Made by a program: the position numbers and the translations under genes. Below the pieces are notes generated by a model. The model was not told the origin of the DNA and ran no database searches. It saw only the letters and a program-made list of their open reading frames with translations. Positions 306-15,785 of a DNA stretch of 52,551 nt are shown here, piece by piece. The stretch is taken from NCBI RefSeq assembly GCF_000720455.1, contig NZ_JOAK01000037.1:1-52551 (forward strand). The letters run 5' to 3'. The DNA comes from Streptomyces virginiae (GTDB taxonomy: Bacteria; Actinomycetota; Actinomycetes; Streptomycetales; Streptomycetaceae). Each line of letters starts with the position of its first letter. Position 1 is the first letter of the stretch.

Positions 306-3300
306 CTATTCGCTCCGCTCGCGCGCGGACACGGTCACGTGGTCCACCCGCATCGGATGGCCGGGCTGCGTCCCAGGGCCGACGTCCGCGCCGTCGGCCC
401 GCGGAAGCGTGCCGCCGACGGCCACGTTGAGGATCAGGAACAGCCCGTGGTCCACGGCCCGCCCCCAGGTCCCGGAGTCCAGCCGGTCGGCCGTCACCCG
501 GTGGTACAAGCGGCCGTCCAGATACCAGCGCACCTCCTCGGCGCCCGGGGCACGGTCCACCTCCACGGCGTACGAGTGGAAGGCCGCACGGCAGCCGGAG
601 CACGGCTGCGGACCCGAGGTCAGGCCCACGGGCTCCTGGCACGGGCCGCCTTCGAGGACTCCGCAGTGCATGGAGCCGAAGACGGTGTCCCGCCCGTTCA
701 CGGACTCCATGACGTCGAACTCACCGACCCCCGGCCACCCCGTGTACCCGTCGCGCGGCGGCGCCCCCAGGGTCCAGAACGCCGGCCAGTAGCCGGCCGC
801 ACCGGTCCCGGTCACATCCGGCAGGGCGATCGACGCCTCGATCCGCAGCACCCCGCCGGGCGGCGGGGCGAAGTCGGAGCGCCGGGTCTCGATGCGCCCC
901 GAACTCCACGCGCCGTCCTCGCGGGTGGGGACGATCTCCAGCGCGCCCTTCCCGTCGAGGCGGACGTTGTCGGTCGAGTCCGTCACGGTCTCCACCTCCC
1001 CGGTGCCCCACTGCGGCGCCGGGCAGCCGGGATGGCAAGTGCCGACGTCGTGGACCCAGTTGGCGGCCGAAGGCGCGCTGCCCGCCGGCCCGTCGAAGTC
1101 CTCCCGCAGCAGCCGCGTCCAGCCGTCCACACCGCGGGCCGCGCCCGGCGGTGCCACCGCCGGCAGGGCCCCGGCCTCCGTGAACAGCCGCTCCAGCCGG
1201 TTGGTCAGGACGACGGCCGCCACATTGGTCAGGTGCGCGTCGTCCCGGTACAGCAGGATCCGGTCGAGCACGGCCGGGCAGGTCGGGCCGTTCCCCGGGC
1301 ACAGCACCCCGTTCACGCCGACGCTCCGTACGCCGGGCAGCGCGCCGGACGCGATCCGCCGCGCCAGCGGATCGGGCCGGAGCGCGCCGGCGCGGCCGAA
1401 CGCGCAGTCGTCGGGGGAGTCGGGGCTCCCGGAGACGCACGCCGCGACGTCCGTACCCGGTACGGGGGTGTCCTCGACGTAGACGATCGGCGCGCCCAGA
1501 GCCCGGAGCGGCGCGAGGGTCTTCTCCCAGGCCTCGGCCAGGAGCCGTTCGTCCCCGGTGTACCGGTTGAGCGAGGAGATCACGACGAGCCGTGGCTTCG
1601 GCTGCTTCCCCAGCCGCTCCAGGGTGTCCGCCCGCCAGATGTCGCACTCCCGGTAGGCGCGGCCCAGCTGGGGGCTGTCCACCGTCAGCCGGGGCAGCGG
1701 GCAGCCCTGCTTCACGAACTCCTGCAGCGCCCAGCCCCGGGAGGAGGCCAGCGCCAGCATCGGCGAGAACCACTGCCCGGCGTGCGAGTCGCCGAGCAGC
1801 ACGATCCGGTCCGGGCTGTCCACCGCGCCGAACAGGCAGTCCGGGCTGCTCGTCCGGGCCGGGGCGATCTCGCATGGCCCGTCCGGCGGGAAGTCGCCCC
1901 GCGCCTGCACGGGACTGGGCACCACCGGTCCGTCCACGAGCGGTGTCCCCGCGGTCCGGGCCAGCAGGGTGGGCCCCGAGACGGCGCCCGGTGGCAGCCC
2001 CTTCGGGTCGACGGGCGCGGCCGGACCGAGCAGCTTCAAGGTCGTGGTGCCCATCACCAGCGCGAGGACCACGGGCAGCACGATGGCCGATACGCCCACC
2101 GACAGCCCACGGCGGGGGAGTTCGCAGACCGTGCGGCTGCGCCGCAGCGGCCGCTCGACCCACCGCATCGTGGCCAGGGCGGGCAGCGCCGCCGCCAGCG
2201 TCAGCGCGGTCCTCGCCGGCCATCCGAGCGGGCCCCACCGCGCCTCGGCGAGGACAAGCACCGGCCAGTGCCACAGGTACAGGTTGTAGGAGAGCCGCCC
2301 GACGGCCCGCGGCGCCCGGCCCGCGAGCAGCCGTCCGACGTCACCGGCGCCCGGTGCGTGGCGCTCGCCCCGCCCGGGTGCCGCGGCGAGGATCACCGCG
2401 ACGGTGCCCAGCGTCGGCACGAGCGCCGCCCGGCCCGGATACGGGGTCGCGGCGTCGTACGCCACGACGCACCAGCCGATCGCCGCCGCCCCCGCCCAGC
2501 CGCACAGCAGCCGCAGCGGTCGCGGCCCCCGCGTCAGGTGCAGGGGCAGCAGGGCGAGCAGTGCGCCGGCGCCGAACTGCCAGACGCGCGAGGGCGTGCC
2601 GAGGTAGGCCAGGGAGACCGAGTGCCGCGTCCAGTGGAGGGCCAGGGCGAACGACGCGAGCGTCAGCGGCGCTGCGACCAGGAACACCAGGTGGCGCACC
2701 GCCCGGCCCCGGCGGACCGCCCGGGCCGCGCAGAGCGCGACCACCGCCAGCAGCGGGGCCCAGAACAGGTAGAACTGCTCCTCGACGGCGAGGGACCAGA
2801 AGTGCAGCAGAGGACTCTGGTCGTGTCCGGCGTCGAGATAGTCGGTCCGCTGCGACACGAACCGCCAGTTGGCGACGGACAGCGCCGCCGCGACGACGTC
2901 GTGCTCCACGTCGGTGCGGCGCAGCGGTACGGTCAGCCAGGCGCCGGCGACCGCCACCGCGGCCAGCACCACTGCGGCCGAGGGCAGCAGCCGCCGGGCT
3001 CGCCGGGAGAAGAAGTCCCCGAGCCGGATCCGGCCCGTGGCGGTCGCCTCGCGGACCAGCAGGCCGGTGATCAGGTAGCCGGACATGACGAAGAAGACGT
3101 CCACTCCGACGAAACCGCCGGTCGCCCAGGGGATCCCGGCGTGGAAGGCGAGGACCGCGACGACGGCGACCGCGCGCAGGCCCTCGATGTCGGGCCGGAA
3201 GGCGGACCGGTGCGGACTGGGCCCGGACTCGCCGCCGGAACGGGAAGCCGCGGCCGGCCGGGCACCCGCGCGCCCCGGGGTCCGGCGGCGGCCGGGTATG

Positions 3301-3314
3301 ACGGGGAAGGACAT
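306..3314 (-). CDS. Acyltransferase-3 / SGNH / GH16 triple-domain envelope protein
   Basis: A 1002-aa protein with three readable parts. Residues ~39-400 are an OafA/YrhL-type acyltransferase-3: FRPDIEGLRAVAV, FHAG, DVFFVMSGYLITG and about ten membrane segments. Residues ~500-715 are an SGNH domain with GDSH (Ser510) and DDAH (Asp692, His694). Residues ~730-1002 are a GH16 fold with the catalytic pattern E-x-D-x-x-E (Glu865, Asp867, Glu870). OafA-type proteins with SGNH O-acylate surface glycans, and GH16 members are mostly endo-beta-1,3(4)-glucanases. AT3-SGNH is common; the added GH16 is unusual, and by topology it should face the outside. The start ATG follows GAAAGG and lies 14 bases after the glycosyltransferase stop, so the two are probably co-transcribed. 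I infer modification and trimming of the glucan made by that neighbour. Confidence 0.9.
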   Translation of the reverse strand: MSFPVIPGRRRTPGRAGARPAAASRSGGESGPSPHRSAFRPDIEGLRAVAVVAVLAFHAGIPWATGGFVGVDVFFVMSGYLITGLLVREATATGRIRLGDFFSRRARRLLPSAAVVLAAVAVAGAWLTVPLRRTDVEHDVVAAALSVANWRFVSQRTDYLDAGHDQSPLLHFWSLAVEEQFYLFWAPLLAVVALCAARAVRRGRAVRHLVFLVAAPLTLASFALALHWTRHSVSLAYLGTPSRVWQFGAGALLALLPLHLTRGPRPLRLLCGWAGAAAIGWCVVAYDAATPYPGRAALVPTLGTVAVILAAAPGRGERHAPGAGDVGRLLAGRAPRAVGRLSYNLYLWHWPVLVLAEARWGPLGWPARTALTLAAALPALATMRWVERPLRRSRTVCELPRRGLSVGVSAIVLPVVLALVMGTTTLKLLGPAAPVDPKGLPPGAVSGPTLLARTAGTPLVDGPVVPSPVQARGDFPPDGPCEIAPARTSSPDCLFGAVDSPDRIVLLGDSHAGQWFSPMLALASSRGWALQEFVKQGCPLPRLTVDSPQLGRAYRECDIWRADTLERLGKQPKPRLVVISSLNRYTGDERLLAEAWEKTLAPLRALGAPIVYVEDTPVPGTDVAACVSGSPDSPDDCAFGRAGALRPDPLARRIASGALPGVRSVGVNGVLCPGNGPTCPAVLDRILLYRDDAHLTNVAAVVLTNRLERLFTEAGALPAVAPPGAARGVDGWTRLLREDFDGPAGSAPSAANWVHDVGTCHPGCPAPQWGTGEVETVTDSTDNVRLDGKGALEIVPTREDGAWSSGRIETRRSDFAPPPGGVLRIEASIALPDVTGTGAAGYWPAFWTLGAPPRDGYTGWPGVGEFDVMESVNGRDTVFGSMHCGVLEGGPCQEPVGLTSGPQPCSGCRAAFHSYAVEVDRAPGAEEVRWYLDGRLYHRVTADRLDSGTWGRAVDHGLFLILNVAVGGTLPRADGADVGPGTQPGHPMRVDHVTVSARERSE

Positions 3315-3328
3315 GGTGACGGCGCCTT

Positions 3329-5041
3329 TCAGCTCAGCCAGGGAAGCATCGGGTCGACCCATCCCGATGCCAGCAGGCCGGTGAGCAGGATGACCGCGGA
3401 CGCGGCGACGGTCTCGGGCCAGCGGCGGGGCAGCACGCCGGAACGGGTGCCCGGGCGGGGCCGGACGCGGTCGCGGACGCGGGCCCGGACGCGGGCGCGC
3501 AGCGACGACGCGGCGCCGCCCGGGGCGGGACGCAGTTCGGCCGCCAGGTCCCGGACCAGCGGGACGTTGATCTGGAACTGCACCACGACGTACAGGAGCA
3601 GCCCCCAGTTGGGCTCCCAGCCGTTGCGGGCCACGGCCAGCGCGAGTCCCGAGGCGGCCGCGCCGTTGGAGAATGCCAGCCACACCAGCGCCACGGCCAC
3701 CACCCGGCGGGCCATTGCGCCCCGGGCCGCCGCACCCCCGACGCCGGTCGGCACCCAGGCGGCGCTGCGGCCCCGCAGCGTGTGCAGGAACGCCGTCGCG
3801 GCGGCCACGCTCGTCAGGACGTTGGCCCGGATCACCTCCACCCGCCAGCGGGTCCGGCTGACCCGGGGCAGCAGCACGTGCCACAGCCACAGAGGGGCGA
3901 GCAGCGGCAGCACGTGCCAGGGCCGGATCATGTCCGGGTAGCGGAACATCATCACCAGCGGCGCCGCGAAGGTGTTCACGGCCGTCGTCAGGTAGCCGAC
4001 GACGCCTTCGTAGAAGCACAGGCGCATGCGCCACGGCGCGCGCATCCGGCGCAGTACGGGCGTGCCGAGCAGGTGCAGGTTGCCCATCGCCCACCGGTAC
4101 TGCTGGTTGACGAAGGAGGTGACCCGGTCGGGCGAGGTGCCCTTGGCGACCAGTACGGGTACGTAGAGCGTGCGGAAGCCCTGTTCGTGGAGGGCGAGTC
4201 CGGTGTACAGGTCCTCGCTGTGGTCGAGCCGGGCGAAGCCGCCGGCCAGGTCGAGCGCGGCGCGCCGGTAGACGGCGTTGCTGCCGCAGCAGATGGCGGC
4301 GTCGCTGGCGTCCCGGGACGGCTGGATCCACCGGAAGAACCATTCCTGGGCGGAGCCCGCGGCGCGCTGGATCCAGCTCATGGTCCCGTCGGTGTCGAAG
4401 CACTGCGGGCTCTGGACGATGCCGACGGCGGGATCGGCGAGGTACGGCACGAGATGGCGCAGGAAGTCCGGCCTGGGCGCGAAGTCCGCGTCGAGGATGG
4501 CGACGAACTCGGCGCTGCTCAGGGTCAGCGCGTGGTTGAGGTTCCCGGCCTTCTTCAGGTGCCCGCGGTCGGGGCGCACGACGTACTCGTAGCCGTGACG
4601 GGCGGCCAGCGCGGCGACTTCGGGCCGGTCGGCGTCGTCGAGGATCCACACGGTCAGCGCGTCGGCGGGCCAGTCGACGGCCGCCACGGCGCGGTAGGCG
4701 TTGTCCAGGACGGGCAGCGGCTCCCCGCAGGTCGGCAGGTACAGGTCGACCCCGGGAGGGGGCGCGGGCCGCCATGCGTGGACGAGTACCTCGTGGGACC
4801 GTCTGGTGAGCCGGCGCTGGCGCAGGCTGTTGACGGAGGAGAGCGCCAGGGCCGCGACGTTGAGCCCGAGGACGGCGAGGAAGGCCCACAGGGCGGGTGT
4901 CCGCAGGGCGAAGGTGAACATGGTCGCCGCGGTGAAGACGAAAGCGAGCGAGGTGACGACCAGGACCCAGCGGCGTTGCGGGCCGAAGTACCAGTAGAGC
5001 TCCTCGTCGGACGGCGGTTGCGGAAGATGATGAACAGTCAC
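3329..5041 (-). CDS. Processive family 2 glycosyltransferase (cellulose-synthase-like)
   Basis: A 571-aa integral membrane synthase. Two N-terminal membrane helices precede a cytosolic GT2 domain with DDAD (~135-138), the DxD-type ILDAD (~184-186), SED (~276) and QQYRW (~313-317), the D,D,D,QxxRW signature of processive beta-glycan synthases. Several membrane helices follow, and the tail is an Arg/Val/Pro low-complexity stretch. I chose GTG at 5041 because GGGGGG sits just before it; GTG at 5053 would add four residues. The adjoining gene carries a GH16 domain, so a beta-glucan product is an inference. There is no PilZ domain or BcsB-like partner here. Confidence 0.88.
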   Translation of the reverse strand: MTVHHLPQPPSDEELYWYFGPQRRWVLVVTSLAFVFTAATMFTFALRTPALWAFLAVLGLNVAALALSSVNSLRQRRLTRRSHEVLVHAWRPAPPPGVDLYLPTCGEPLPVLDNAYRAVAAVDWPADALTVWILDDADRPEVAALAARHGYEYVVRPDRGHLKKAGNLNHALTLSSAEFVAILDADFAPRPDFLRHLVPYLADPAVGIVQSPQCFDTDGTMSWIQRAAGSAQEWFFRWIQPSRDASDAAICCGSNAVYRRAALDLAGGFARLDHSEDLYTGLALHEQGFRTLYVPVLVAKGTSPDRVTSFVNQQYRWAMGNLHLLGTPVLRRMRAPWRMRLCFYEGVVGYLTTAVNTFAAPLVMMFRYPDMIRPWHVLPLLAPLWLWHVLLPRVSRTRWRVEVIRANVLTSVAAATAFLHTLRGRSAAWVPTGVGGAAARGAMARRVVAVALVWLAFSNGAAASGLALAVARNGWEPNWGLLLYVVVQFQINVPLVRDLAAELRPAPGGAASSLRARVRARVRDRVRPRPGTRSGVLPRRWPETVAASAVILLTGLLASGWVDPMLPWLS

Positions 5042-5280: not shown

Positions 5281-6786
5281 TCATGGGGCGGCGTCGCCGC
5301 GGTCGTGCTCCAGCCGGAGCAGCTCCGGCAGGTCCGCCAGCCGGTCGAGCCCCCGAACCGGCATGGCGGTCCGGGCGTTGTGCAGCAGCCGGTCCCGGTG
5401 GCGGTGCAGGAAGGACCAGTACCCGGTGGTGAAGGGGCAGGCGTCCTCGCCGCTGCGGGAGCCGGGCCGGTAGCGGCACGGCCCGCACAGGTCGCTCATC
5501 CGGTCGATGTAGGCGCCACCGGACGTGTAGGGCTTGGTCGTCATACGGCCGCCGTCCGCGTACTGCGACATGCCGACCACGTTGGGGAGCATGACCCAGT
5601 CGTAGCCGTCGACGAACGAGCGGTGGAACCAGTCGGTGAGCGCCGCCGGGTCCCAGCCCCGCTGGAGCGCGTAACTGCCCAGCACCATCAGCCGCGGAAT
5701 GTGGTGGGTCCAGCCGGTGTCCCGGACCTGGCGGAGCACGGTCGAAAGGCACCGGGCCGTGACGGCGTCCGCATCGAGCGAGTCCCACCAGGCGGGCAGC
5801 GGCCCGGTGTGCCCCAGGACGTTGGACGTCCGGTACTCCTCACCGAAGTGCCAGTACAGGTGCCAGACGTACTCCCGCCATCCGGCGATCTGCCGGACGA
5901 AGCCCTCGGCGGAGTTGAGGGGGACGGCGCCGGCCCGCCAGGCGGCCTCCGCGCGCTCCACGCACTCCGCCGGATCCAGCAGACCGAGGTTGAGGGACGA
6001 GGACAGCAGGCTGTGGCTCAGCACCGGGTCGGCGGCGAACATGACGTCCTCGTGGGCGCCGAACCCGGCGAGCCGGTGGTCCACGAAACGCCGCAGCGCG
6101 GCCAGCGCCTCCCGCCGGCCCGCCGGGAAGAGCCGCGGGCCGTCCCGGCCGGCGAACGAAACACCGCCGGACCGCTCCCAGCGGTCGAGGTCCTCCCGGA
6201 CGCCGGCGTCGATGTCGTCCTCGCGGGGCCGGTAGGGGGCGGGTGCGTCGAGGGTCCGCGCTCCCCGCGGCGGGGGCTCCCGGTTGTCGTGATCGAGGTT
6301 CCACCTCCCCCCTGCCGGTTCACCCCCGTCCATCAGCAGGTCCAGCTTCCGCCGCACGTGGCGGTAGAAGTTCTCGAGCCGCAGCCCGCCCTCCGGATGC
6401 CCGGCCGCCCACTGCGCGAATTCCTCGTGCGTCAGCAGGAAGCCGCGGGCCGGCAGGACGGTCACGCCGTCGAGCGAGTTCACCAGGGCCGCCGCCGCCC
6501 GGGAGGTCGGGTGGTGCACCGTGACCGGAGAGCTGCCGACGGCGCGGCGCAGGCCCTCGCGGTACGTGTCGGCCTTGACGTAGACGACGCGGTCGCCCAG
6601 CTCGGCGGCACGGTGACGCATCGCCGAGAGCATCAGGTGCGCCTTGGCCCGGTGGAACCGGCGCCGGCGGAAGACCGCCTGCGATTCGATCATCACCAGG
6701 GGGGCGTCGCGGGGGACGCCCCCCTCACCCGGGGCGATGAAGGCAGGGCCCAGCTGATCGCCGAAGAGCCAGTGTGCGCCGGTCAT
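5281..6786 (-). CDS. Iron-sulfur bacterial cryptochrome/(6-4) photolyase (PhrB-like)
   Basis: A 501-aa flavoprotein of the FeS-BCP branch of the photolyase/cryptochrome family, which repairs (6-4) photoproducts or senses light. The start MTGAHWLFGDQLGP and the segment WTHHIPRLMVLGSYALQRG are typical. Cys346, Cys434, Cys437 and Cys450 have the same spacing (88, 3, 13) as the 4Fe-4S ligands I recall for Agrobacterium PhrB (350, 438, 441, 454), so the cluster is probably intact. GGAAGGA lies upstream of the ATG. A short inverted repeat TCCCGC-aagc-GCGGGA (6830-6845) lies 44 bases upstream. Divergent from the ZnF-UBP gene. Confidence 0.93.
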   Translation of the reverse strand: MTGAHWLFGDQLGPAFIAPGEGGVPRDAPLVMIESQAVFRRRRFHRAKAHLMLSAMRHRAAELGDRVVYVKADTYREGLRRAVGSSPVTVHHPTSRAAAALVNSLDGVTVLPARGFLLTHEEFAQWAAGHPEGGLRLENFYRHVRRKLDLLMDGGEPAGGRWNLDHDNREPPPRGARTLDAPAPYRPREDDIDAGVREDLDRWERSGGVSFAGRDGPRLFPAGRREALAALRRFVDHRLAGFGAHEDVMFAADPVLSHSLLSSSLNLGLLDPAECVERAEAAWRAGAVPLNSAEGFVRQIAGWREYVWHLYWHFGEEYRTSNVLGHTGPLPAWWDSLDADAVTARCLSTVLRQVRDTGWTHHIPRLMVLGSYALQRGWDPAALTDWFHRSFVDGYDWVMLPNVVGMSQYADGGRMTTKPYTSGGAYIDRMSDLCGPCRYRPGSRSGEDACPFTTGYWSFLHRHRDRLLHNARTAMPVRGLDRLADLPELLRLEHDRGDAAP

Positions 6787-6966
6787 GCCGCCGTCCTTCC
6801 CCGCAGGTGCATGCGTCCCTACCGGTACTTCCCGCAAGCGCGGGAGTTCGGACGCACCCATCGGGTGGCACTCGGCGACGCATCCGTTCGGCCCGCCCGG
6901 GCCGAAGAGGGAGCGAGGAGCCGTCCGCGAGCGGCGGACGCGACCCGGCGGCGGAGCGGAGGCCCG

Positions 6967-7368
6967 ATGGGAGGACAGCACGAGTGGCGGGTCGCGCCCG
7001 ACGCGGGGCGGCCGGACGGACGCGCGTGCGCGCATCTCGACCTCATGGACGACTGGAGGCTCATGGAGGACTGCAGGCCGGCCCCGGCCGCGTCGCCCGC
7101 CACGTGCACGGACTGCCTGGCGCGCGGGACGACCTGGGTGAGGCTGCGCCAATGCGTGACCTGCGGACACGTCGGATGCTGCGACACCTCCACCGGCCGC
7201 CACGCCCACGGGCACCATGTGGAGAGCGGGCACCCGGTCGCCGTGTCGCTCGCAGCGGACGAGGACTGGGCCTGGTGCTTCCCCGACGAGGTCTTCCTGG
7301 TCCGCGCCGGAGGCGACGCGGCAGACCCGCCCGCCGGACGAGGACCGCACCGACGGGAGGCCCCATGA
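6967..7368 (+). CDS. UBP-type zinc finger protein
   Basis: A 133-aa protein whose centre carries the ZnF-UBP ligand series: CAHL, CTDC, CVTCGHVGCCD, then HAHGHH and a late HP. In eukaryotes this finger binds the free C-terminus of ubiquitin. In actinobacteria it occurs as small stand-alone proteins of unknown role, so no ubiquitin function is implied. The ATG at 6967 was chosen because it gives a compact domain; a weak GGCCC precedes it. Its stop overlaps the next start (ATGA), implying coupled translation. Confidence 0.85.
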   Translation: MGGQHEWRVAPDAGRPDGRACAHLDLMDDWRLMEDCRPAPAASPATCTDCLARGTTWVRLRQCVTCGHVGCCDTSTGRHAHGHHVESGHPVAVSLAADEDWAWCFPDEVFLVRAGGDAADPPAGRGPHRREAP

Positions 7369-7862
7369 GCACGCACCACGCGGACACGCCCAGGACGGAA
7401 TCGGTGTGGGACTATCCGCGCCCGCCCCGGATCGAGCCCGACGCCCGGCACGTGGTGGTGCGCCACGCCGGCGCGGTCCTGGCCGACTCCCGCCGCTGCC
7501 TCCGCGTACTGGAGACCAGCCATCCGCCGGTCTTCTACGTCCCGCGGGCCGATGTGCGCACCGACCTCCTGCGCGCCTCCGCGAACCGCAGCATGTGCGA
7601 GTGGAAGGGCACGGCCACCTACTGGACCCTCGGCCCGCGGCCCGGCCTGCCGCCCGTGCCCGACATCGCGTGGAGCTACGAGACGCCGAGCCCGTCCTAC
7701 GCGCCGATCGCCGGCCATCTCGCGTTCCGCGCCGACCGGGTGGAGGCGTGCACGGTGGACGGAGAGCCCGTGCGGGCCCAGCCGGGCGGCTTCTACGGAG
7801 GGTGGATCACGCACGAGATCACCGGCCCCTTCAAGGGGGAGCCCGGCAGCCGGGGCTGGTGA
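7365..7862 (+). CDS. DUF427 domain protein
   Basis: A 165-aa protein matching DUF427: SVWDYPRPPRIEP at the start, VLADSRRCLRVLETSHPPVFYVPRADV, CEWKGTATYW and the C-terminal FYGGWIT. The family is common in Streptomyces and fungi, and the biochemical role is unknown. The ATG overlaps the stop of the ZnF-UBP gene by four bases (ATGA) and follows GGGAGG, so the two are one translational unit. A hairpin follows the stop. Confidence 0.9.
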   Translation: MSTHHADTPRTESVWDYPRPPRIEPDARHVVVRHAGAVLADSRRCLRVLETSHPPVFYVPRADVRTDLLRASANRSMCEWKGTATYWTLGPRPGLPPVPDIAWSYETPSPSYAPIAGHLAFRADRVEACTVDGEPVRAQPGGFYGGWITHEITGPFKGEPGSRGW

Positions 7863-7932: not shown

Positions 7933-10443
7933 CTACCGGCGGGCGTCCACCACCGCGAGGAGCTTGCCGCTGGTCGGGCTGCGGTCCAGCGACGCGCCGT
8001 CGACGGCCTCCACCACCAGGTCCAGGAGCCGCTCCGCCACCGCCGACCGCAGCTCCGGGTAGCCCGCCAGGAAGACCTCCCGCAGCCGCTCCGGATCCGT
8101 CGCCGCGCCGCGTTCCACCCGTACGGTCAGCCGCTCGCGCGCGTCCGTGGCGTCGAGCCGGACCTGCAGCTCGCCCCGGTGGCCGCCGGGCTCCCCCGCC
8201 AGGTCCAGGAACCGCCGGTGATTGAGGAAGTACGTCGCCACCCGCATCACGTCACCCGTGCGGCCCTGCAGTTCGAAGCGGGGCGCGTGCCGGCCGCACG
8301 GACAGCGGCCCGGGACCTCCCGGCCGAGGTCGCCGATCACGTAACGGCCCAGGTCCTGGCCCCGCCGGGCATGCGTGGTGAACACCAGCCGGCCCGTCTC
8401 GCCCGGCGCCACCGGCCGGTCCTCGGCCGGCTCCAGGACCTCCATGGTGTGCAGGTCGGCGTGCAGGTGGTGGACGCCGCCGGAGCTCTCGGTGCACTGG
8501 TAGCCCAGTGGCCCGAGGTCGGTGCTGCCGTAGGTGATCGACCGGATCACCTCGATGCCGAAGGTGTCCTTCAGGGTCCGCTGCTGCTCCGCGGTGAAGT
8601 GCTCGCCGCCGTAGAAGACCTTGCGCAGTCCGCCGTACGCACGCAGGGCGTCCGCCTCCGCATGGAGCAGCTGCCACAGGTAGGAGGGCATCCCGAACAG
8701 GGTGTCGGCCCCGAGGTCGATCAGCGCCCGGGCCGTCGCCCGGTGGTCGGGGCCGGCCGACAGCGGCAGCTGCACCCCGCCGAGCCGTTCCAGTACGGAG
8801 AAGAAGCTGATGAAGCTGCCGTACATGGCGCCGCAGTAGAAGAGGTTGGCCGTGCGGTCCCCGACCGGGTCGTAGCCGGCCGCGAGCAGGCCGCGGGCTG
8901 CGGCGTGCATCTGCGTGTCGTAGTCGTCGTAGCTGAAGACCGACAGCGCGGGCGCGCCGGTGCTGCCGCCACTGCGGAAGTACAGCTCGGCATCGGCGCG
9001 CGCCACCCGACGGCCCGGCTCCTGCACGTCCTCCTTGCCCAGCAACGGGCCCGCGGGCGGCGGCAGGACGACGGGCCTGGCCAGGTCGTCCAGGCAGGCG
9101 GTGGTGGCGAAGAGCGCGGGGTCGGCCTGGACCGCGACGCGGCGGCTGTAGCGCTGCAGGGCGTACACGCCGTCGTGCGGCTCACCCGCGTAGCTCTCCA
9201 GCATGGCTCCGACGGGCGTGACACGGGTGACGCCGGCGGCCAGCGCGGTGCGGGACAGCTCGGCGATGTCGGTCCGGCTGCCCGCGAGGCCCGCCGTCTG
9301 CAGGTAGCGGCGCATCGGGCGCAGGGTCGCGATCATCCGCTTCCGCGGCAGCGGCTTGACCCAGACGCTGCGGTGCAGCGGCGAGGCCGTGAGCGGGGAG
9401 CGGGTGTCGGCCATGACCCGCCAGGAGCCGTCGGGCGCGGCGAACACCCGGGTGAGACCGAGGTGTTCCTCCAGCCGGGCCACCAGCTCGGTGGTGGTCA
9501 GCTCCGCCTCCTGCGCCGGGTCCGGCCCGACCGCGGACACGGCGCCCACCGCCGGCGGCCGGGCCGCGAGCACGGCTGCGAAACGCTCGGCGAAGGCGAA
9601 CACCTCGCCCTCGTCCTCGGTGTCGAGGTAGACCACCTGGGGGCTGGAGCAGGCCTGCTGCTCGTGCAGGCACACGTCGTCGGCGAGGGCGCCGAGCGTC
9701 ACGGCGTCCGACCAGGCGTCACTGGTCAGGTAGGCGAAGGAGATCCGGTGCCCCCACTCCACCAGCCGGCAACCCGCCGGCACATGGGCCGCCACACCTT
9801 CCACGGCGCCTTCGCCGCCCCACACGGCCACGGCGTCCGCGGGCGCGCACATCAGGCGCAGCCACTCCTGCCGGGACGACGGGAACCGCAGCACGACGAT
9901 CCGGGCGGCCAGCGCACCACTGGGGTCCAGGGCCGCCAGCTCGGCCATCAGGTGCTGGGTGAGCAGGGTGTCGGCGCTGCTGGTCTTGAGGATGTTGACG
10001 TTGCCCGCGAGCAGGCCCTCGACGATGCTCAGCGGTGCCACCGTCGCCGCGTTCCCCGGGGCGATGTGGGCGACCAGCCCCACCGGCGCCCACGCCTCGT
10101 AGACCGTCTCGCGCGGATCGGCCCGGTTCAGCCGGCCCGGAGCCGTGCCGCCCAGCTCCCGGCGCAGCTTGCGGGTCAGCTCGCGCCGGCCGAGGAGGGC
10201 GCCGAGCTCGGCCAGCACCGCCGGGTCCTCGCCCTCCGGCAGGTGCGCGGCGAGCCGGCCGTGTACGGGGTGGGCCGGGTCGCACAGCGCGCCGGCGAGG
10301 GCGTCGCAGGCGGCCAGGACGGTCTCGGTCTCCAGATCCGTCGCCAGCGCCGCCTCGACTGCGGCCGGCAGCTCCGCGAGACGTCGCCCGGCCTCCTCGT
10401 CGCCGATGAGGGAACCCTGCCAGTAGTGGTGGTGCACGCTCAT
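7933..10443 (-). CDS. LuxC acyl reductase fused to PaaK-like adenylate-forming domain
   Basis: An 836-aa two-domain protein. Residues ~1-410 resemble LuxC, the NADPH-dependent acyl-CoA/acyl-enzyme reductase of bacterial luminescence: APVGLVAHIAPGNAATVAPLSIVEGLLAGN and the active-site stretch EQQACSSPQ with Cys265. Residues ~410-836 are a PaaK/LuxE-type ligase with the nucleotide loop FRSGGSTGAPA, YGSTDLGP and CPCGR. LuxC takes an acyl group onto the cysteine and reduces it to an aldehyde. The fused ligase could load it from a free acid plus ATP. The ATG lies two bases after the stop of the LuxE-like gene, and it is last in the operon. No luxA or luxB is in the window, so light production is unlikely. 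The substrate is unknown. Confidence 0.9.
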   Translation of the reverse strand: MSVHHHYWQGSLIGDEEAGRRLAELPAAVEAALATDLETETVLAACDALAGALCDPAHPVHGRLAAHLPEGEDPAVLAELGALLGRRELTRKLRRELGGTAPGRLNRADPRETVYEAWAPVGLVAHIAPGNAATVAPLSIVEGLLAGNVNILKTSSADTLLTQHLMAELAALDPSGALAARIVVLRFPSSRQEWLRLMCAPADAVAVWGGEGAVEGVAAHVPAGCRLVEWGHRISFAYLTSDAWSDAVTLGALADDVCLHEQQACSSPQVVYLDTEDEGEVFAFAERFAAVLAARPPAVGAVSAVGPDPAQEAELTTTELVARLEEHLGLTRVFAAPDGSWRVMADTRSPLTASPLHRSVWVKPLPRKRMIATLRPMRRYLQTAGLAGSRTDIAELSRTALAAGVTRVTPVGAMLESYAGEPHDGVYALQRYSRRVAVQADPALFATTACLDDLARPVVLPPPAGPLLGKEDVQEPGRRVARADAELYFRSGGSTGAPALSVFSYDDYDTQMHAAARGLLAAGYDPVGDRTANLFYCGAMYGSFISFFSVLERLGGVQLPLSAGPDHRATARALIDLGADTLFGMPSYLWQLLHAEADALRAYGGLRKVFYGGEHFTAEQQRTLKDTFGIEVIRSITYGSTDLGPLGYQCTESSGGVHHLHADLHTMEVLEPAEDRPVAPGETGRLVFTTHARRGQDLGRYVIGDLGREVPGRCPCGRHAPRFELQGRTGDVMRVATYFLNHRRFLDLAGEPGGHRGELQVRLDATDARERLTVRVERGAATDPERLREVFLAGYPELRSAVAERLLDLVVEAVDGASLDRSPTSGKLLAVVDARR

Positions 10444-10445
10444 GG

Positions 10446-11603
10446 TCACGCCATTCCCTTCATCAGTTCCGCCGCGGCCACGGCGCAGCTCTTGTTGCGG
10501 CTCACCCCGGCACGGCCGTGCACGGTGAACCAGGGGGTCTCCAGCTCGCACCCGCAGGCTCCGCCCGGCCGGAGCGAGGCGAGGTCGCCCATGACCACGC
10601 TCTGCGCCGGCACCGAGGTGATGTACGGCGACACCAGGTGCAGGTACCCGCGCTCCCCGTACGGCAGGGGCTCCAGGGTCCGGGTGGAGCGGATCGTCAC
10701 CCGCGACCAGACGGGGGCGTGCAGCCGGTGGTGGTCGCACTCGATGTAGGGGATGCAGTGCTCCACGGACCCGAAGGTGTCCCGGATCCGCTCACCCGGG
10801 ATGCCGAGCTGCTCGGTGACGCGCGCGTACAGCTCCTCCTTCTCGATGCGCCGGTCGGCGTGGCCCTTCCACCCGCCGCCGAGGACGACGAGCGAGCCCT
10901 CGGGCAGGCGCAGCGGCGCCATCCCCATGGCCCGCATCCGCTCCAGGGTGAAGAAGAGGAAGGCGGGGAAGCCGAGGATGCGGACCGGGGCGTCCTCCCG
11001 CTCGAAGCGGCGCAGTGCGGCGACGCAGCCGAAGGGGTCGAACTCGTGGTCGCCGCCGGTGTTGCGCAGCGCGTACTCCACGCTGCGCGCCGGGGCGAAA
11101 TCGCACAGGTAGTTGTCGGTGAAGGCAGTGCCCAGGTTCAGGGACGGGGCCGGCTCGTAGCTGTAGAGGAGGTAGTTGACCTCTTGGTCCGGGGTGATCC
11201 AGCCGTTGCGCTCGAAGATCCGGGCGACCATGCGCTGCGCGGAGCGGATGGTCCAGTGGTCGAAGAACATCTGCGACTTCTGGCCGGTGGTGCCGGAGGA
11301 GGTCAGGTGCAGTTCGACGTCCTCGCGCGGGATGGAGAGCACCTCGTGGCGCTTGAAGAAGTTCGCGTGGACGAGGGGCGCACGGTACGGCTCCGCCGGG
11401 GGAGTCGCCTCGTACAGGGAGCGGAAGAACGGGGAGCGTTCGGTGTGCCAGGCGTTGGTCTCCGCCATGGCGGCGGCGAACAGCTCGTCCGCCGCGGGCC
11501 CGTGGGCGTAGGGGTCGGTCAGGTCGCACAGCTGTTGGACGTGAGGCAGGAGGGCCGGGTCGGGTACGGCGACCGGCGCGAGATGGGGGTTCATGCGGTT
11601 CAT
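10446..11603 (-). CDS. LuxE-like acyl-protein synthetase
   Basis: A 385-aa protein of the LuxE/PaaK family. It has the ATP-binding SSGTTGQKSQ, AFLFFTLERMRAM and, near the C-terminus, GRAGVSRNKSCAVAAAEL. Cys373 in that last motif matches the cysteine that carries the acyl group in LuxE. LuxE activates a fatty acid with ATP, moves it to its own cysteine and passes it to LuxC; both partners are adjacent here. The start codon overlaps the previous stop (ATGA), with CGAGG about nine bases upstream. A second ATG three codons in is possible. I infer that this and the LuxC fusion form an acid-to-aldehyde pathway. Confidence 0.9.
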   Translation of the reverse strand: MNRMNPHLAPVAVPDPALLPHVQQLCDLTDPYAHGPAADELFAAAMAETNAWHTERSPFFRSLYEATPPAEPYRAPLVHANFFKRHEVLSIPREDVELHLTSSGTTGQKSQMFFDHWTIRSAQRMVARIFERNGWITPDQEVNYLLYSYEPAPSLNLGTAFTDNYLCDFAPARSVEYALRNTGGDHEFDPFGCVAALRRFEREDAPVRILGFPAFLFFTLERMRAMGMAPLRLPEGSLVVLGGGWKGHADRRIEKEELYARVTEQLGIPGERIRDTFGSVEHCIPYIECDHHRLHAPVWSRVTIRSTRTLEPLPYGERGYLHLVSPYITSVPAQSVVMGDLASLRPGGACGCELETPWFTVHGRAGVSRNKSCAVAAAELMKGMA

Positions 11604-12748
11604 GGGGCAACCTCGGATGATGTGGGCAGGTGCGCCGACGCCCAGGCCGACGCGTAGCAGTCCAGGTACGGCTGGAGGGGCGGTTCGACGGCGACGCCGC
11701 GGAAGTCGATGCGCTCGCTGGAGCGGGACAGGACGGCGTAGTCGTGGAAGCCGTCGCCGTCCGCGCGCATCGCCGGGTAGAGGGCTCCGGCGACGAACCC
11801 ATGGGCCAGGAAGGCGGAGAGGGCCTCCTGGTGGGCGAGCGGCACCAGGGCCTCCACGTAGCCGGCGCCGGCGCGGGCGAGGGCCCGGGTGACGGGTTCG
11901 AGGTGGGCGGCCGCGGCGGCCGGGTCGGGATGGGCGGTCAGCAGGGAGCAGTAGCCGCCGGCGCGGTTGAGGTAGGCGTACACCTCGAACCGGCCGTCTT
12001 CCGGTGTGAGCAGCACGTTGGGGGTGTGCAGCGGGTAGAACCAGCCTTCCGCCCCCGGGAAGCGCTCGCGGAAGCGGCGGCGTACGAACGCCGGAGCCTC
12101 GATCAACTCCAGCTGTTCTGCCGCCCCTTGCGGCGCGGGCGTCGCCGGTGGCCGGCCGTAGGCGGCCCGCACCCCCGGGTAGCCGATGCCGAGGGCCGCT
12201 CCGGCCGTACGCAGCAACGGCAGCAGTACGGCGGGCACTTCGGCGACGGGCACCCGGCGGTCGAGCACACCGGGGGAGTGACGCGCGTAGAGCGCGAGGC
12301 TCTCGCGGCTGCGGAGGTCCACCGCGTTGGGCAGGATGCCGAGCGGACGGAAACCGTTGCGGGCGACGACCCGCTGCGGACCGGAGCCGACGGTGCGGAC
12401 GGTCGCGTACACCGAGTCCAGCCGGCCGGTGTCCAGCATCTCGGCGCAGAGGGCTTCGGTCAGGGCGGCGGCCAGGCCCGCTGAGCGGTGCTCGGGGTGC
12501 ACGGCTATGCCCTCCAGCCGGGCGATGCGGCTGTCGGCCTCGCCGTGGATGGCGGCGGACGCGGCCAGGGCTCCGGTGACGGGGCAGCGGGCGACGAGCC
12601 ACAGGGAGTGCGGGTCGGCCATGAGCCGGGCCATCTCGGCCGGGTCCGTGCCGAGGGCGACGGGGTAGTGCGGGCCGTAGACGGCGTAATAGAGCTGCCG
12701 CAGTTCGGCGATGTCCGTGCCGGTGGCCGGGGTGATGACGGGGTTCAC
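11600..12748 (-). CDS. Double-domain GNAT acyltransferase
   Basis: A 382-aa protein. The first half has a clear GNAT acyl-CoA loop (LEGIAVHPEHRSAGLAAALTEAL, ~90-115). The second half (~235-345) reads as a degenerate second GNAT-like fold with a tail. GNAT enzymes move acetyl or longer acyl groups to amines. The start GTG overlaps the stop of the MFS gene (GTGA), and its own stop overlaps the LuxE-like start, so its dosage is tied to the operon. It may acylate an amine made from the aldehyde, or protect the producer; neither is shown. Confidence 0.8.
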   Translation of the reverse strand: MNPVITPATGTDIAELRQLYYAVYGPHYPVALGTDPAEMARLMADPHSLWLVARCPVTGALAASAAIHGEADSRIARLEGIAVHPEHRSAGLAAALTEALCAEMLDTGRLDSVYATVRTVGSGPQRVVARNGFRPLGILPNAVDLRSRESLALYARHSPGVLDRRVPVAEVPAVLLPLLRTAGAALGIGYPGVRAAYGRPPATPAPQGAAEQLELIEAPAFVRRRFRERFPGAEGWFYPLHTPNVLLTPEDGRFEVYAYLNRAGGYCSLLTAHPDPAAAAAHLEPVTRALARAGAGYVEALVPLAHQEALSAFLAHGFVAGALYPAMRADGDGFHDYAVLSRSSERIDFRGVAVEPPLQPYLDCYASAWASAHLPTSSEVAP

Positions 12749-14073
12749 CGGGCGCCTCCCACGGTCTCCGGCTCCGGTGTGGGCGCCGCGTCTATCGAGG
12801 GCGACGGTTCGGGCGTACGGGATCCCAGCAGGGCCAGCGCGCCGGCGGCGGGCAGCAGGCCGGCGCCCTGGACCAGGCACAGCGTCTGCGGGGAGACGAG
12901 GTCGCCCGCCGAGCCGAAGACCAGGGAAGCCACCGGCAGGGAGGCGCCCAGTACGGCCTGCATCACGGCGAAGAAGCCGGGCTTGTCGGCGGTCGGCACC
13001 AGCCGCTGGAAGAGCGCCACGAAGCGGACGCTGACGGCCCCGGCACACCAGCCGGCCACCGCCAGGCAGCCCGCGACGACCGGCCGCTGCCCGAACAGGC
13101 CGGGCAGCGCCAGGGCGAGGGACATGAGCCCCAGGCACCAGGCGCCGGCGACCGTGGGCCGCCCGGGCACGCGGGTACCGGTGAAGGCGCCGACGAGGGC
13201 GCCCGCGCCCAGTGAGGCCTCCAGCAGGGCGACGGTGCCGCCACCGCCCCCGAGGACGGAGCGGGTGTAGAGGGGGATGACGACGAACACGGCGGCGGTG
13301 AAGAGGTTCGCCGCGGTGAAGCAGATCAGGATCCGCCGTACGTAGGGCAGTTCGCCGAGGATGTGGCGCAGCGGGCGCTGCGCCGGCGGTGCCTCCGGGC
13401 CGGCCGCGGCAGCCGGGCTGCGGAAGCGCGCGCTCGCGACGAGGAGGGCGGCCCCGGCGTAGGCGGCCGCGCAGCCGGCGGCCAGTGCGGCCACACCGGC
13501 CCGGTCGACCGTCAGGGCGCCGAGCAGAGCTCCTCCGAGCCCCGCCAGGGACTGGGTGGACAGCTCGAATCCGGTCGCGGTCTCGATGTCGGCGTCGTCG
13601 ACCAGTTCGGGCACCGAGGTGGTCAGGCAGGGGTCGAAGAACGCCTGGCAGGTGGCCAGGGCCAGAGCGGCGGCGTAGACCCCGGCGAGCGGCGGTCCGC
13701 CGCCCTGCGCCCACACCGCGAGGACGCCCGCGGTGGCCGCGGCCAGGCCGGCCGCGCCGCGCAGCACCGAGCGGTGGGCGAACCTGCCCACGGCCCCGGC
13801 GACCACGGGAGCCAGCACCACGGCCGGCAGCGTGCAGGCGGCCATGAACACCCCGGAGGCCAGGCCGCGGGCGTCGCGCACGGCGTAGGCCACGATCCAC
13901 CAGGAGACGCCGACCTGGAACATGCGTACGGCGGCCTGGGTGAGGACCTGGCCCAGCCACACGGCGGCGAAGGCGCGGTTGCGCAGGATCAGCGGGGTGC
14001 GGGACCGATTGCCGGGTGCGGGTGCGGGTGCGGGTGCGGGTGCGGGTGCGGAGTCAGGGGAGGGCGCGGTCAT
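12745..14073 (-). CDS. MFS transporter of the biosynthetic operon
   Basis: A 442-aa membrane protein with about 12 hydrophobic helices, resembling MFS_3-type (enterobactin-exporter-like) permeases: NRAFAAVWLGQVLTQAAVRMFQVG at the start, ELVDDADIETATGFELSTQSLAG mid-protein and VLGASLPVASLVFGSAGD near the end. The N-terminus carries an Ala-Pro run encoded by six GGGTGC-phase hexamers. The start overlaps the stop of the upstream ligase (ATGA) and the stop overlaps the GNAT start (GTGA). Export of the operon's product is the natural inference. Confidence 0.88.
   Translation of the reverse strand: MTAPSPDSAPAPAPAPAPAPGNRSRTPLILRNRAFAAVWLGQVLTQAAVRMFQVGVSWWIVAYAVRDARGLASGVFMAACTLPAVVLAPVVAGAVGRFAHRSVLRGAAGLAAATAGVLAVWAQGGGPPLAGVYAAALALATCQAFFDPCLTTSVPELVDDADIETATGFELSTQSLAGLGGALLGALTVDRAGVAALAAGCAAAYAGAALLVASARFRSPAAAAGPEAPPAQRPLRHILGELPYVRRILICFTAANLFTAAVFVVIPLYTRSVLGGGGGTVALLEASLGAGALVGAFTGTRVPGRPTVAGAWCLGLMSLALALPGLFGQRPVVAGCLAVAGWCAGAVSVRFVALFQRLVPTADKPGFFAVMQAVLGASLPVASLVFGSAGDLVSPQTLCLVQGAGLLPAAGALALLGSRTPEPSPSIDAAPTPEPETVGGAR
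14014..14049. repeat. GGGTGC hexamer array (6 copies) inside the MFS gene
   Basis: Six exact tandem hexamers in the 5' end of the MFS gene, read in frame as alternating Ala and Pro in the cytosolic N-terminal tail. Copy-number change would alter tail length without a frameshift. Confidence 0.9.
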
Positions 14074-15344
14074 GCCGTCGGCCTCTCGTCGAGGACCCGG
14101 ACGAGCTTGCCCGAGCGCGGGTTGACGGCGAGGTCCCGGTGGCGCGCCCACTCCACGGACAGCGGGTGCACGAACCCGGCGCGCACGCTGTCCGGATACA
14201 GCGGCCGTACGGTCTCCAGCTCCGCGACGACGGCCCGCGCGAGGGACTCGCGCCGATCCGTGTCCCGTTCGTCGCCGGGGGCGGTCGCCAGCCGGAGGAC
14301 GAGCCCGTCGCGGCCCTCCCAGCGGCGGACGACGAGCTGCATGCCGACCACCTGCCCGGCGGTGTCGGCCGAGGCCACGGCGTCCTGGGCGTCCTGGGTG
14401 TAGAGGGAGACCGGGCCGACCCGTACGCCCTCCTCGGCGCGACCGAGGATCCGGAAGTGGCCCGGACCGGTGCCCGTCCACTCGGCCCGGTCGCCGGCGG
14501 GGTAGCGGATGATCGGCATCAGGCGGCGGAAGAGGCTCGTGACGACGACCCGCCCGGGGCGCCCCGGTTCGGTGATGGGCTCGTCCGTGGAGTCGTCGAG
14601 GATCTCGACGACCGAGTGCGGGGTGAAGGCCCGGTGCACCCGGGCGTCGGCGCCGGGCACGGGACGGCCCAGCAGGCCGGCGTCGACGCTGGCGTAGCCG
14701 ACGGAACGGGCCGCGGCGCCGGGGAACGCCGTGGCCAGCAGGCGCCGCTGGTCGTCGAAGAGCGCCTCGCCGCCGAAGAGGAGAAGCTCGACGGATGTGA
14801 GACGGACGCCGGAGGCGAGGACCTGTTCGGCGAGCCGGCACAGGGTGGTGGGCGTGCCGGCGAGCACTTGGGCGGCGAGATCGCGCAGCGTGGGGATCGT
14901 CGACTCCAGCGGAGCGCCGCCGCCGATGGGCAGGCGGACGTTGTCCACGGGCGCGTGGGCGAGCGAGTCGAGGACGAAGAGGAAGCTGGCGTACAGCTCC
15001 CCGGCGTAGAAGAGGTCGGCGACGCGGTGTCCCGGGCGCAACCCCGTGTCCACCAGGCCCTGCCCGAAGGTGGTGACGAAGGTGCGCCACTCGTCCCGGG
15101 TGTAGACGGAGAACTTGGGGGATCCGGTGGTGCCGCCGGTCTTGTAGACCGTGGCTTCGCTGAGCGGACCGGTCAGCACGCGGCTGTCGTGCAGGGTGTT
15201 GGCCGCCCAGAAGGACCTCTGGTCGACCACCGGAAGGTCGGCGAGACGGTCGGCGCTCGGCGGCAGGGACGCGTAGAGGTCCCGGTAGAAGGGCGAGTTG
15301 TGACGGGCGAAACGTATGAGGTCCGAGAGTTGCTGGGCGGACAT
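14070..15344 (-). CDS. PaaK-like phenylacetate-CoA-ligase family enzyme
   Basis: A 424-aa adenylate-forming enzyme. LIRFARHNSPFYRDLYA is the classic N-terminus of this family, followed by KTGGTTGSPKFSV (ATP loop), LLFGGEALFDDQ, VGYASVDAGLLG and a C-terminal NPRSGKLVRVLDE. It aligns by eye with the C-terminal half of the LuxC fusion but lacks that domain's CPCGR motif. I chose the ATG at 15344 because AAAGG precedes it and the family homology starts there; an ATG at 15494 would add a proline-rich 50-residue tail with no ribosome site. First gene of the five-gene operon; probably activates the acyl or aryl acid. Confidence 0.85.
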   Translation of the reverse strand: MSAQQLSDLIRFARHNSPFYRDLYASLPPSADRLADLPVVDQRSFWAANTLHDSRVLTGPLSEATVYKTGGTTGSPKFSVYTRDEWRTFVTTFGQGLVDTGLRPGHRVADLFYAGELYASFLFVLDSLAHAPVDNVRLPIGGGAPLESTIPTLRDLAAQVLAGTPTTLCRLAEQVLASGVRLTSVELLLFGGEALFDDQRRLLATAFPGAAARSVGYASVDAGLLGRPVPGADARVHRAFTPHSVVEILDDSTDEPITEPGRPGRVVVTSLFRRLMPIIRYPAGDRAEWTGTGPGHFRILGRAEEGVRVGPVSLYTQDAQDAVASADTAGQVVGMQLVVRRWEGRDGLVLRLATAPGDERDTDRRESLARAVVAELETVRPLYPDSVRAGFVHPLSVEWARHRDLAVNPRSGKLVRVLDERPTA

Positions 15345-15785
15345 GGGCCTTTGCCTAGGTGACGGAAGTGGGACGGGAGCCACGGCGGGGCTCGGCGAGT
15401 GGATGAACTCGCCTGCCGCATCTGCCGGTACGAACGGGGGACCCCCCGGCGCCCCCGCCTCCTCGACGCACGTCGAAAGCTGACGTGCAGTCATGATGAT
15501 GAAACATCAGTGCGCAAGTCACCAAATTGAGCGAAGATTCCAGGCCATTGTGGCAACATTCAACAATTTTTTCGGCGCGGCCCTCCCGCTTCCGCCGCCA
15601 AGCGGCGGGCCCGGGCCGGCCCGGCGGGCGAGTGGGTGGCCTGCTCGTCGCCGCGGAGGTGCGCAGCGGGGTCGCATGACCATATCGACAACATGTTGTC
15701 TGTCTGGCATCATGGTGTCATGTGTGGCGTTTCCCTCCGCGGAAGACGCGCACCGGACCGCACCTGAACGGGTAGGGAGCCCCTG
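15345..15785. other. Divergent control region of the Lux-like operon and DUF1398 gene
   Basis: 441 bases with no convincing gene. The part from 15490 to 15580 is strikingly AT-rich for this genome (for example CAACAATTTTTT near 15560) and lies upstream of the minus-strand operon, with an ATTGT...ACAAT inverted pair near 15547-15568. I could not fix a -35/-10 pair. The right side holds a 14-base palindrome before the DUF1398 gene. Confidence 0.6.
15687..15700. promoter_or_regulatory. Perfect 14-base palindrome, candidate operator
   Basis: GACAACATGTTGTC is a complete palindrome 86 bases before the DUF1398 start. Size and symmetry suit a dimeric repressor. No matching regulator gene is next to it, so the ligand protein is unknown. 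Confidence 0.45.

Follow-up and report, generated by a model that had tools for sequence, protein, structure and literature searches.

The DNA analyzed here, referred to as the window, is a stretch of 52,551 nucleotides from contig NZ_JOAK01000037.1 of Streptomyces virginiae, and it contains a five-gene operon, A-B-C-D-E, lying on the minus strand from position 15344 down to 7933. In this order, the operon encodes a PaaK-like adenylate-forming ligase (gene A, 14070..15344, 424 amino acids (aa)), an MFS transporter (gene B, 12745..14073, 442 aa; Pfam MFS_1/MFS_3 and TIGR00900), a GNAT N-acyltransferase, probably tandem (gene C, 11600..12748, 382 aa; Pfam Acetyltransf_1), a LuxE-like acyl-protein synthetase (gene D, 10446..11603, 385 aa; Pfam LuxE, 82.5 bits), and a fusion, also recognized by Pfam, of a LuxC reductase with a PaaK-like ligase (gene E, 7933..10443, 836 aa). 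The A–B, B–C, and C–D junctions are 4-base overlaps and the D–E junction is a 2-base gap, so that coordinates, junctions, and Pfam and NCBIfam names all bear out the original prediction, an earlier reading of this DNA, of five tightly joined minus-strand genes at this place. The name of gene A comes from a Pfam AMP-binding match of 28.4 bits, slightly below the curated 29.9, and from two NCBIfam PaaK models (E-values 2e-13 and 9e-20, both under the curated cut-offs); its reading frame stays open to an ATG at 15494, and codon composition favors the start at 15344. A scan for promoters and terminators returned a single promoter-like site, located on the plus strand, and no terminator-like site.

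LuxE and LuxC reduce fatty acids in luminous bacteria, and the catalytic cysteines of these two families are both kept in the operon. The acyl-carrying Cys373 of the LuxE-like protein (codon 10485..10487, minus strand) is Cys in all 67 rows of the alignment. The LuxC (acyl-thioester reductase) part of E (9142..10338, minus strand; PF05893, 292.5 bits, residues 36–434) has its catalytic Cys265 (codon 9649..9651, minus strand) within a QQAC motif that lines up with the solved LuxC structure 7xc6 (7xc6_A), and all 187 rows have Cys at this position. With both cysteines intact, the LuxE/LuxC reductase should be functional, which lends support to the acid-to-aldehyde chemistry originally predicted. 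In the whole S. virginiae genome, LuxC is matched strongly once, by gene E, and twice weakly at 20–22 bits. As had also been claimed, the Pfam scan detected no luxA, luxB, or luxD in the operon; none was detected either when Pfam was run on 18 of the 47 proteins called in the window, with no luciferase search made genome-wide. A luminescence system supplying fatty aldehyde for luciferase was dropped as a candidate on this ground. The operon is thus like luxCDABE (PDB 7xc6) in its LuxE and LuxC families and their cysteines, but differs from it in lacking luxA, luxB, and luxD and in having LuxC fused to a ligase. The flagellar glycan islands with LuxC/LuxE described in Dickeya (PMC7575072) and Aeromonas (PMC7874193) were also ruled out as a model, because the acyl carrier protein, acyl-ACP reductase, and sugar genes of those islands are absent here.

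The operon contains three adenylate-forming modules, the upper of the two numbers originally proposed, including gene A and the ligase half of E (residues 491–836, 7936..8973, minus strand; AMP-binding 491–689). A carrier protein and a peptide synthase had been said to be lacking, and indeed Pfam and NCBIfam detected no condensation, carrier, or terminal reductase domain in the five genes. In gene A, the residues G70, G71, T72, P76, and K413 characteristic of ANL enzymes are invariant in 30 rows and K77 nearly so; in the E ligase, 181 of 187 rows retain Lys827. In a tree of 26 ligases rooted on two other PaaKs, a sample whose widening to more PaaKs could change the result, 10 A rows form one group (support 100/99) that includes the third gene of a Salmonella cassette described below, and 14 E-ligase rows form another (95/97) with members from both Streptomyces and Gammaproteobacteria. 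The Salmonella protein is the sole non-actinobacterial A in this tree and is flagged as a long branch, and an isolated A-like gene surrounded by transposases (L107, 42% identity) was excluded. From this topology, the two ligases are taken to have travelled together with the reductase. We consider it most likely that they make peptide bonds. The profile of gene A matches the PaaK-like ligase 6siw about as well (59.7 bits) as the best PaaK (60.0 bits), a likeness to the PaaK-like amide ligases NatL2, ClxA, and AjiA1 (AjiA1 being 90% identical to NatL2), of which NatL2 and ClxA use ATP to form amide bonds (PMC12519233); they differ in coupling aromatic acids, and no reductase partner is described there.

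Gene C had been called a double GNAT, of which the GNAT part stands and the doubling is plausible. An AlphaFold2 model (predicted local distance difference test score (pLDDT) 83, predicted template modeling score 0.85) contains two GNAT-like sheets, and its matches in the PDB include a tandem GNAT of the clavulanic acid pathway (2wpw), a histidine acetyltransferase (9en3), phosphinothricin acetyltransferases, and many other GNATs, thereby taking in acetyltransferases of free amino acids (9en3 and the phosphinothricin enzymes). However, Pfam recognizes a single GNAT domain, and blastp of the two halves against each other gave no significant match; the tandem GNAT structures superpose poorly on C as a whole (root-mean-square deviation 12–15 Å).

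A pattern scan starting from E over genome contigs yielded 41 loci, 40 in Streptomyces and one in Crossiella; in the locus table, tblastn matches below 36% identity were dropped, only the best match per gene was kept, and partial genes were counted as present (e.g., B in L010, and B and C in L040). All five genes occur in the order A-B-C-D-E on one strand at 37 of the 41 named loci. Among the exceptions, two loci (L015 and L016) are without B, another (L013) meets the contig edge before A, and the Crossiella locus (L039) has C-D-E with A approximately 3 kb downstream on the opposite strand and B missing; the absence of A from L013 and L075 is due to the end of the contig. Because the same genes, order, and strand recur in 37 of 41 loci, the operon is conserved beyond chance. 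When nine window genes outside the operon were used as queries, few recurred beside it, and those in a handful of loci, so that the operon itself is the unit. Of 392 Streptomyces genomes sampled, E finds a match at E ≤ 1e-60 in 45, of which 44 carry the fusion and one (G003) a LuxC-type protein only. A LuxE query at E ≤ 1e-40 over 394 genomes from 137 genera of the class found seven, all Streptomyces. Proteins 60–66% identical to D are nevertheless found under the names Amycolatopsis, Lentzea, Crossiella, and Kitasatospora among the best 120 of 1512 matches.

Twenty further stretches, picked from the E-matching genomes among the 392, comprise 14 with A-B-C-D-E, three with B-C-D-E, two with D and a ligase-less LuxC, and one cut by a contig end. 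The B-C-D-E stretches represent a 54–56% clade from three genomes (G246, G299, and G167). No orthologue of A was found in the complete Streptomyces genome G246, where the best match (32%) is the ligase of its own E and the next is at 27%; G299 and G167 have two cassette copies each, one complete with A and the other with a single ligase. G299 also holds a lone A-like gene (42%) amid transposases. Gene E is further found on large plasmids of Streptomyces sp. NBC_00158 and Streptantibioticus cattleyicolor, in both of which five genes were confirmed, and of Streptomyces sp. BHT-5-2. On the NBC_00158 plasmid (L097, 15235–16602), three annotated peptidase inhibitor family I36 genes lie directly downstream of the operon, which is itself presumed to make a protease inhibitor.

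A plasmid protein search detected a row of LuxE, LuxC–PaaK, PaaK, and GNAT genes on two Salmonella enterica IncF plasmids (CP054717 and CP053580). The two cassettes are 99.9% identical over 6201 bases, and the four genes span 5759 bp; identity to the Salmonella genes is 53% for D (LuxE), 38% for E (fusion), and 40% for A (PaaK). Both cassettes (L095, 12212–18375; L096, 10212–17700) are on conjugative plasmids near recombinase genes and behind a 121-aa protein without a Pfam match, and in CP053580 the GNAT gene is unannotated despite the 99.9% identical DNA. No near match to the cassette was found in E. coli genomes. Among the best 120 of 526 homologues of the Salmonella fusion, which are approximately 800 aa long (798–802 aa in K. 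michiganensis), many are named Klebsiella michiganensis, and others Providencia, Morganella, Erwinia, Yersinia, Chromobacterium, and further taxa, with one K. quasipneumoniae.

This distribution recalls that of the leup operon, which within its species complex has been reported only from strains with blaOXY-1 (K. michiganensis) or blaOXY-5, and which in strain CAV1374 (leupABCD) occupies nucleotides 315,353–321,183 of CP011636.1 (5831 bp) with a transporter adjacent (PMC8283571). The leup pathway has been described as using separate AMP-dependent ligases for the amide bonds and a reductase for the aldehyde (PMC11212599, citing Li et al. 2020), and leup in K. oxytoca yields leupeptin, its lysine analogue, and derived pyrazinones (PMC11480411). 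The separate ligases, the reductase, and the adjacent transporter are features shared by the Streptomyces operon with leupABCD of K. michiganensis and leup of Xenorhabdus and Photorhabdus, and the homologous LuxE, LuxC–PaaK, and PaaK, plus a GNAT, are shared with the enterobacterial cassette. The differences are in gene order (PaaK-MFS-GNAT-LuxE-fusion here versus LuxE-fusion-PaaK-GNAT in Salmonella), in the length of the GNAT (382 versus 294 aa), in the MFS gene being inside the operon here, and in the 38–53% identity of LuxE, fusion, and PaaK. The operon had been put forward as an unusual pathway type; a known cluster with the same genes, however, probably exists (leupABCD with its transporter, and leup of Xenorhabdus), homologous genes occur in enterobacteria, and a leup pathway of this kind, independent of nonribosomal peptide synthetases (NRPSs), already has precedents in gut and insect bacteria (Gammaproteobacteria). 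In the literature searched, no text linked a leup-type operon to Streptomyces; Li et al. 2020 lay outside that search and may mention it.

Leupeptin is acetyl-Leu-Leu-argininal. We propose, with a probability of about 0.8, that the S. virginiae operon is the Streptomyces version of leup, a carrier-free and non-NRPS route to an N-acyl peptide ending in argininal. In the predicted pathway, the GNAT protein C would first acetylate (or propionylate) leucine, and ligase A would then form the first peptide bond, activating the carboxyl group of N-acyl-Leu with ATP for coupling to a second Leu. The ligase half of E would form the last peptide bond, adding Arg with ATP to give Ac-Leu-Leu-Arg; we place it last because it is fused to the reductase and because a clade without A exists. 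The LuxE-like protein D would activate the C-terminal carboxyl group with ATP, load it onto its Cys373, and pass it to Cys265 of LuxC, whereupon the LuxC half of E would reduce the acyl group to the aldehyde (argininal), with NADPH as a presumed reductant by analogy. The product would finally be exported by B; export of the aldehyde through the MFS protein, part of the original prediction, is likely from the MFS_1/TIGR00900 match. In this scheme, the gene content, the catalytic residues, the gene order, and the homology that A, D, and E show to the cassette of enterobacteria are directly observed, and the role of C, the substrates, the assignment of bonds to ligases, and the product are our proposals. 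The fatty-aldehyde route originally envisaged is not supported; what undergoes reduction is most likely the acid of an Arg-terminated peptide. Three enzyme activities reported from extracts of S. roseus, acetylation of leucine, ATP-dependent synthesis of leupeptin acid, and reduction of leupeptin acid with ATP and NADPH, fit these steps in our judgment.

Leupeptin itself was described from actinomycetes in 1969, as the title of a paper in the reference lists of PMC11212599 and PMC8546846 indicates, and its cited producers are S. roseus, S. exfoliatus, S. griseus, and S. lavendulae (PMC8546846). Some homologues of the fusion carry the name S. lavendulae, an overlap with the producers at the level of the species name. 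A mass tentatively assigned to leupeptin has been reported for S. virginiae THA-960 (PMC13273461), and other S. virginiae entries among the matches to E hold the fusion. The reference list of PMC8546846 also includes a 1978 paper whose title speaks of a conjugational transfer of leupeptin production in S. roseus.

Several observations weigh against this assignment. The equation of the Salmonella-type cassette with leupABCD is inferred from species distribution, size, and published description, and the one fusion homologue named K. quasipneumoniae is at odds with it. Orthology support for C, which may be the same gene as the Salmonella GNAT, is modest: C did not match that GNAT in tblastn at 1e-6, and in blastp one control GNAT (1.4e-6) came about equal to it (1.2e-6). 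On the other side, hhalign aligned the C profile with the Salmonella GNAT over residues 4–197 (probability 96.6%, E-value 6e-10), and ranked the latter first, with a score of 73.7 and a limited margin over the best control (58.6), among 32 GNATs compared with the C profile, the 31 controls being 30 from the S. virginiae genome and one from the Crossiella locus (L039:5400-6287). In the E ligase, the P-loop residue after Pro is Ala499, as in 61 of 187 rows, against Lys in 121, and this might weaken its adenylation activity. The structure model of A (pLDDT 61) is too poor to separate an amide ligase from a CoA ligase, and the substrates of the ligases cannot be read from their sequences. Moreover, leupeptin in Streptomyces has been ascribed to an antipain-type NRPS (PMC10548850, PMC11212599), and the S. 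virginiae genome contains at least 40 condensation-domain matches.

Of the alternatives, the one that survives best is in fact a sub-case overlapping our proposal, namely, that the same enzyme logic is at work but the main product is another N-acyl peptide aldehyde. Several such compounds are made by Streptomyces (PMC10548850), the leup operons elsewhere also yield a lysine analogue and a homoarginine variant (PMC11480411), and with the ligases only 38–40% identical to those of Salmonella the substrates may have changed. Antipain- and livipeptin-type peptide aldehydes of Streptomyces are likewise peptide aldehyde protease inhibitors, differing in that they are made by NRPSs or by a tRNA-utilizing enzyme together with an NRPS (PMC10548850). 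On the other hand, candidates for every step of leupeptin formation are present in the operon and a cited producer, S. lavendulae, is among the fusion-bearing species, so that we regard a different main product as rather unlikely.

An aryl or fatty carboxylic acid reductase, similar to GriC/GriD or to the lux enzymes, that would provide a non-peptide aldehyde for a small metabolite is improbable. It has a precedent in the luminous LuxE/LuxC enzymes, with 7xc6 as structure match, and in the AMP-binding GriC, which with GriD makes 3-amino-4-hydroxybenzaldehyde in grixazone biosynthesis (PMC10179220). GriC/GriD resembles the operon as a Streptomyces pair of AMP-binding enzyme and reductase converting an acid to an aldehyde; compared by description alone, it differs in its substrate, 3-amino-4-hydroxybenzoate, and in belonging to the grixazone cluster, whereas the present operon additionally encodes LuxE, a further ligase, and a GNAT. 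In Streptomyces and in Salmonella alike, the reductase is accompanied by two additional PaaK-like ligases and a GNAT, in agreement with the published description of leup, and Pfam detected neither an aryl-acid synthesis gene nor an acyl carrier in the operon. Slightly less probable still is that leupeptin-type compounds of Streptomyces are made by an NRPS, as the ascription and the condensation-domain matches noted above would allow, and that the operon is unrelated to them, because an NRPS elsewhere leaves unexplained a conserved operon of LuxE, LuxC, two ligases, and GNAT homologous to the enterobacterial cassette. The contig of the window carries none of the 40 condensation-domain matches that were listed, and a search of the genome for terminal-reductase domains (nine matches) was uninformative, the family being present in 14 of 14 control genomes.

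If the operon is a Streptomyces leup, the clade with a single ligase (lacking A) would be predicted to produce aldehydes of dipeptides, for example acetyl-Leu-argininal, which is among the compounds given in PMC10548850. The ligase domain is missing from the LuxC on a plasmid of S. europaeiscabiei (NZ_CP109155.1; L099), where LuxE (10439–11647; 51% identity to D) and LuxC (11644–13017; 45% identity to E) are directly followed by an annotated 53-aa peptide (13098–13259) with four [DE]FPFR repeats; a GGAAAG stretch ahead of its gene could serve as a ribosome-binding site. The 53-aa peptide has no homologue in the plasmid collection besides the original record, and FPFR-type peptides gave matches in two of the 392 genomes, judged on reading to be chance. 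The same plasmid has a cluster of the type for ribosomally synthesized and post-translationally modified peptides (RiPPs; L099 1607–10412), with a counterpart in another Streptomyces (L129, 7669–16463), encoding a YcaO–nitroreductase fusion, a protein with the metallo-beta-lactamase fold, a 51-aa peptide, an oxidase of the MbnB/TglH/ChrH (MNIO) type, an MFS protein, and an ABC-F protein. Between the two clusters, the enzymes are 83–90% and the 51-aa peptides 60% identical. LuxE, LuxC, and the 53-aa peptide are all absent from the 18 kb read of L129, so that the 53-aa peptide seems tied to LuxE–LuxC and not to the RiPP cluster. This single case suggests a formation of ribosomal argininals by LuxE–LuxC acting on the FPFR peptide. 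LuxE–LuxC pairs without ligase and GNAT also occur in two Streptomyces (L088, 8647–11222; L089, 8789–11379) and on a Chloroflexota plasmid (L132, 8028–10429; no peptide search made); no FPFR-like precursor peptide was found with the pairs of L088 and L089. Tentatively, LuxE–LuxC of this sub-family may be a reusable module that converts the C-terminal carboxyl group (likely of Arg) of a peptide to an aldehyde, the peptide being provided by two ligases, by one ligase, or by a ribosomal precursor.

As for the surroundings of the operon in the window, a photolyase-related DPRP protein (5281–7035, minus strand) and a DUF427 gene (7365–7862, plus strand) lie just past its 3' end; these two genes stand beside the cassette in L002 only among the 41 loci, some of which end right after E. 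Farther away (306–5041, minus strand), an acyltransferase–SGNH protein adjoins a cellulose-synthase-like glycosyltransferase, perhaps for acylation of a surface polysaccharide. An anti-phage defense role of the operon was ruled out, as none of its five proteins matched a PADLOC defense model.

Leupeptin is a standard laboratory protease inhibitor, and the operon offers a directly testable non-NRPS alternative for its formation in the classic producers. With the key fusion gene in 44 of the 392 sampled Streptomyces genomes, clusters that genome miners may overlook could now be annotated, and the small carrier-free peptide ligases and the peptide-acid reductase may possibly be of use in biocatalysis. 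The one-ligase variants provide a clear prediction, a shorter peptide, and the FPFR case, if true, would represent a ribosomal route to argininal protease inhibitors.

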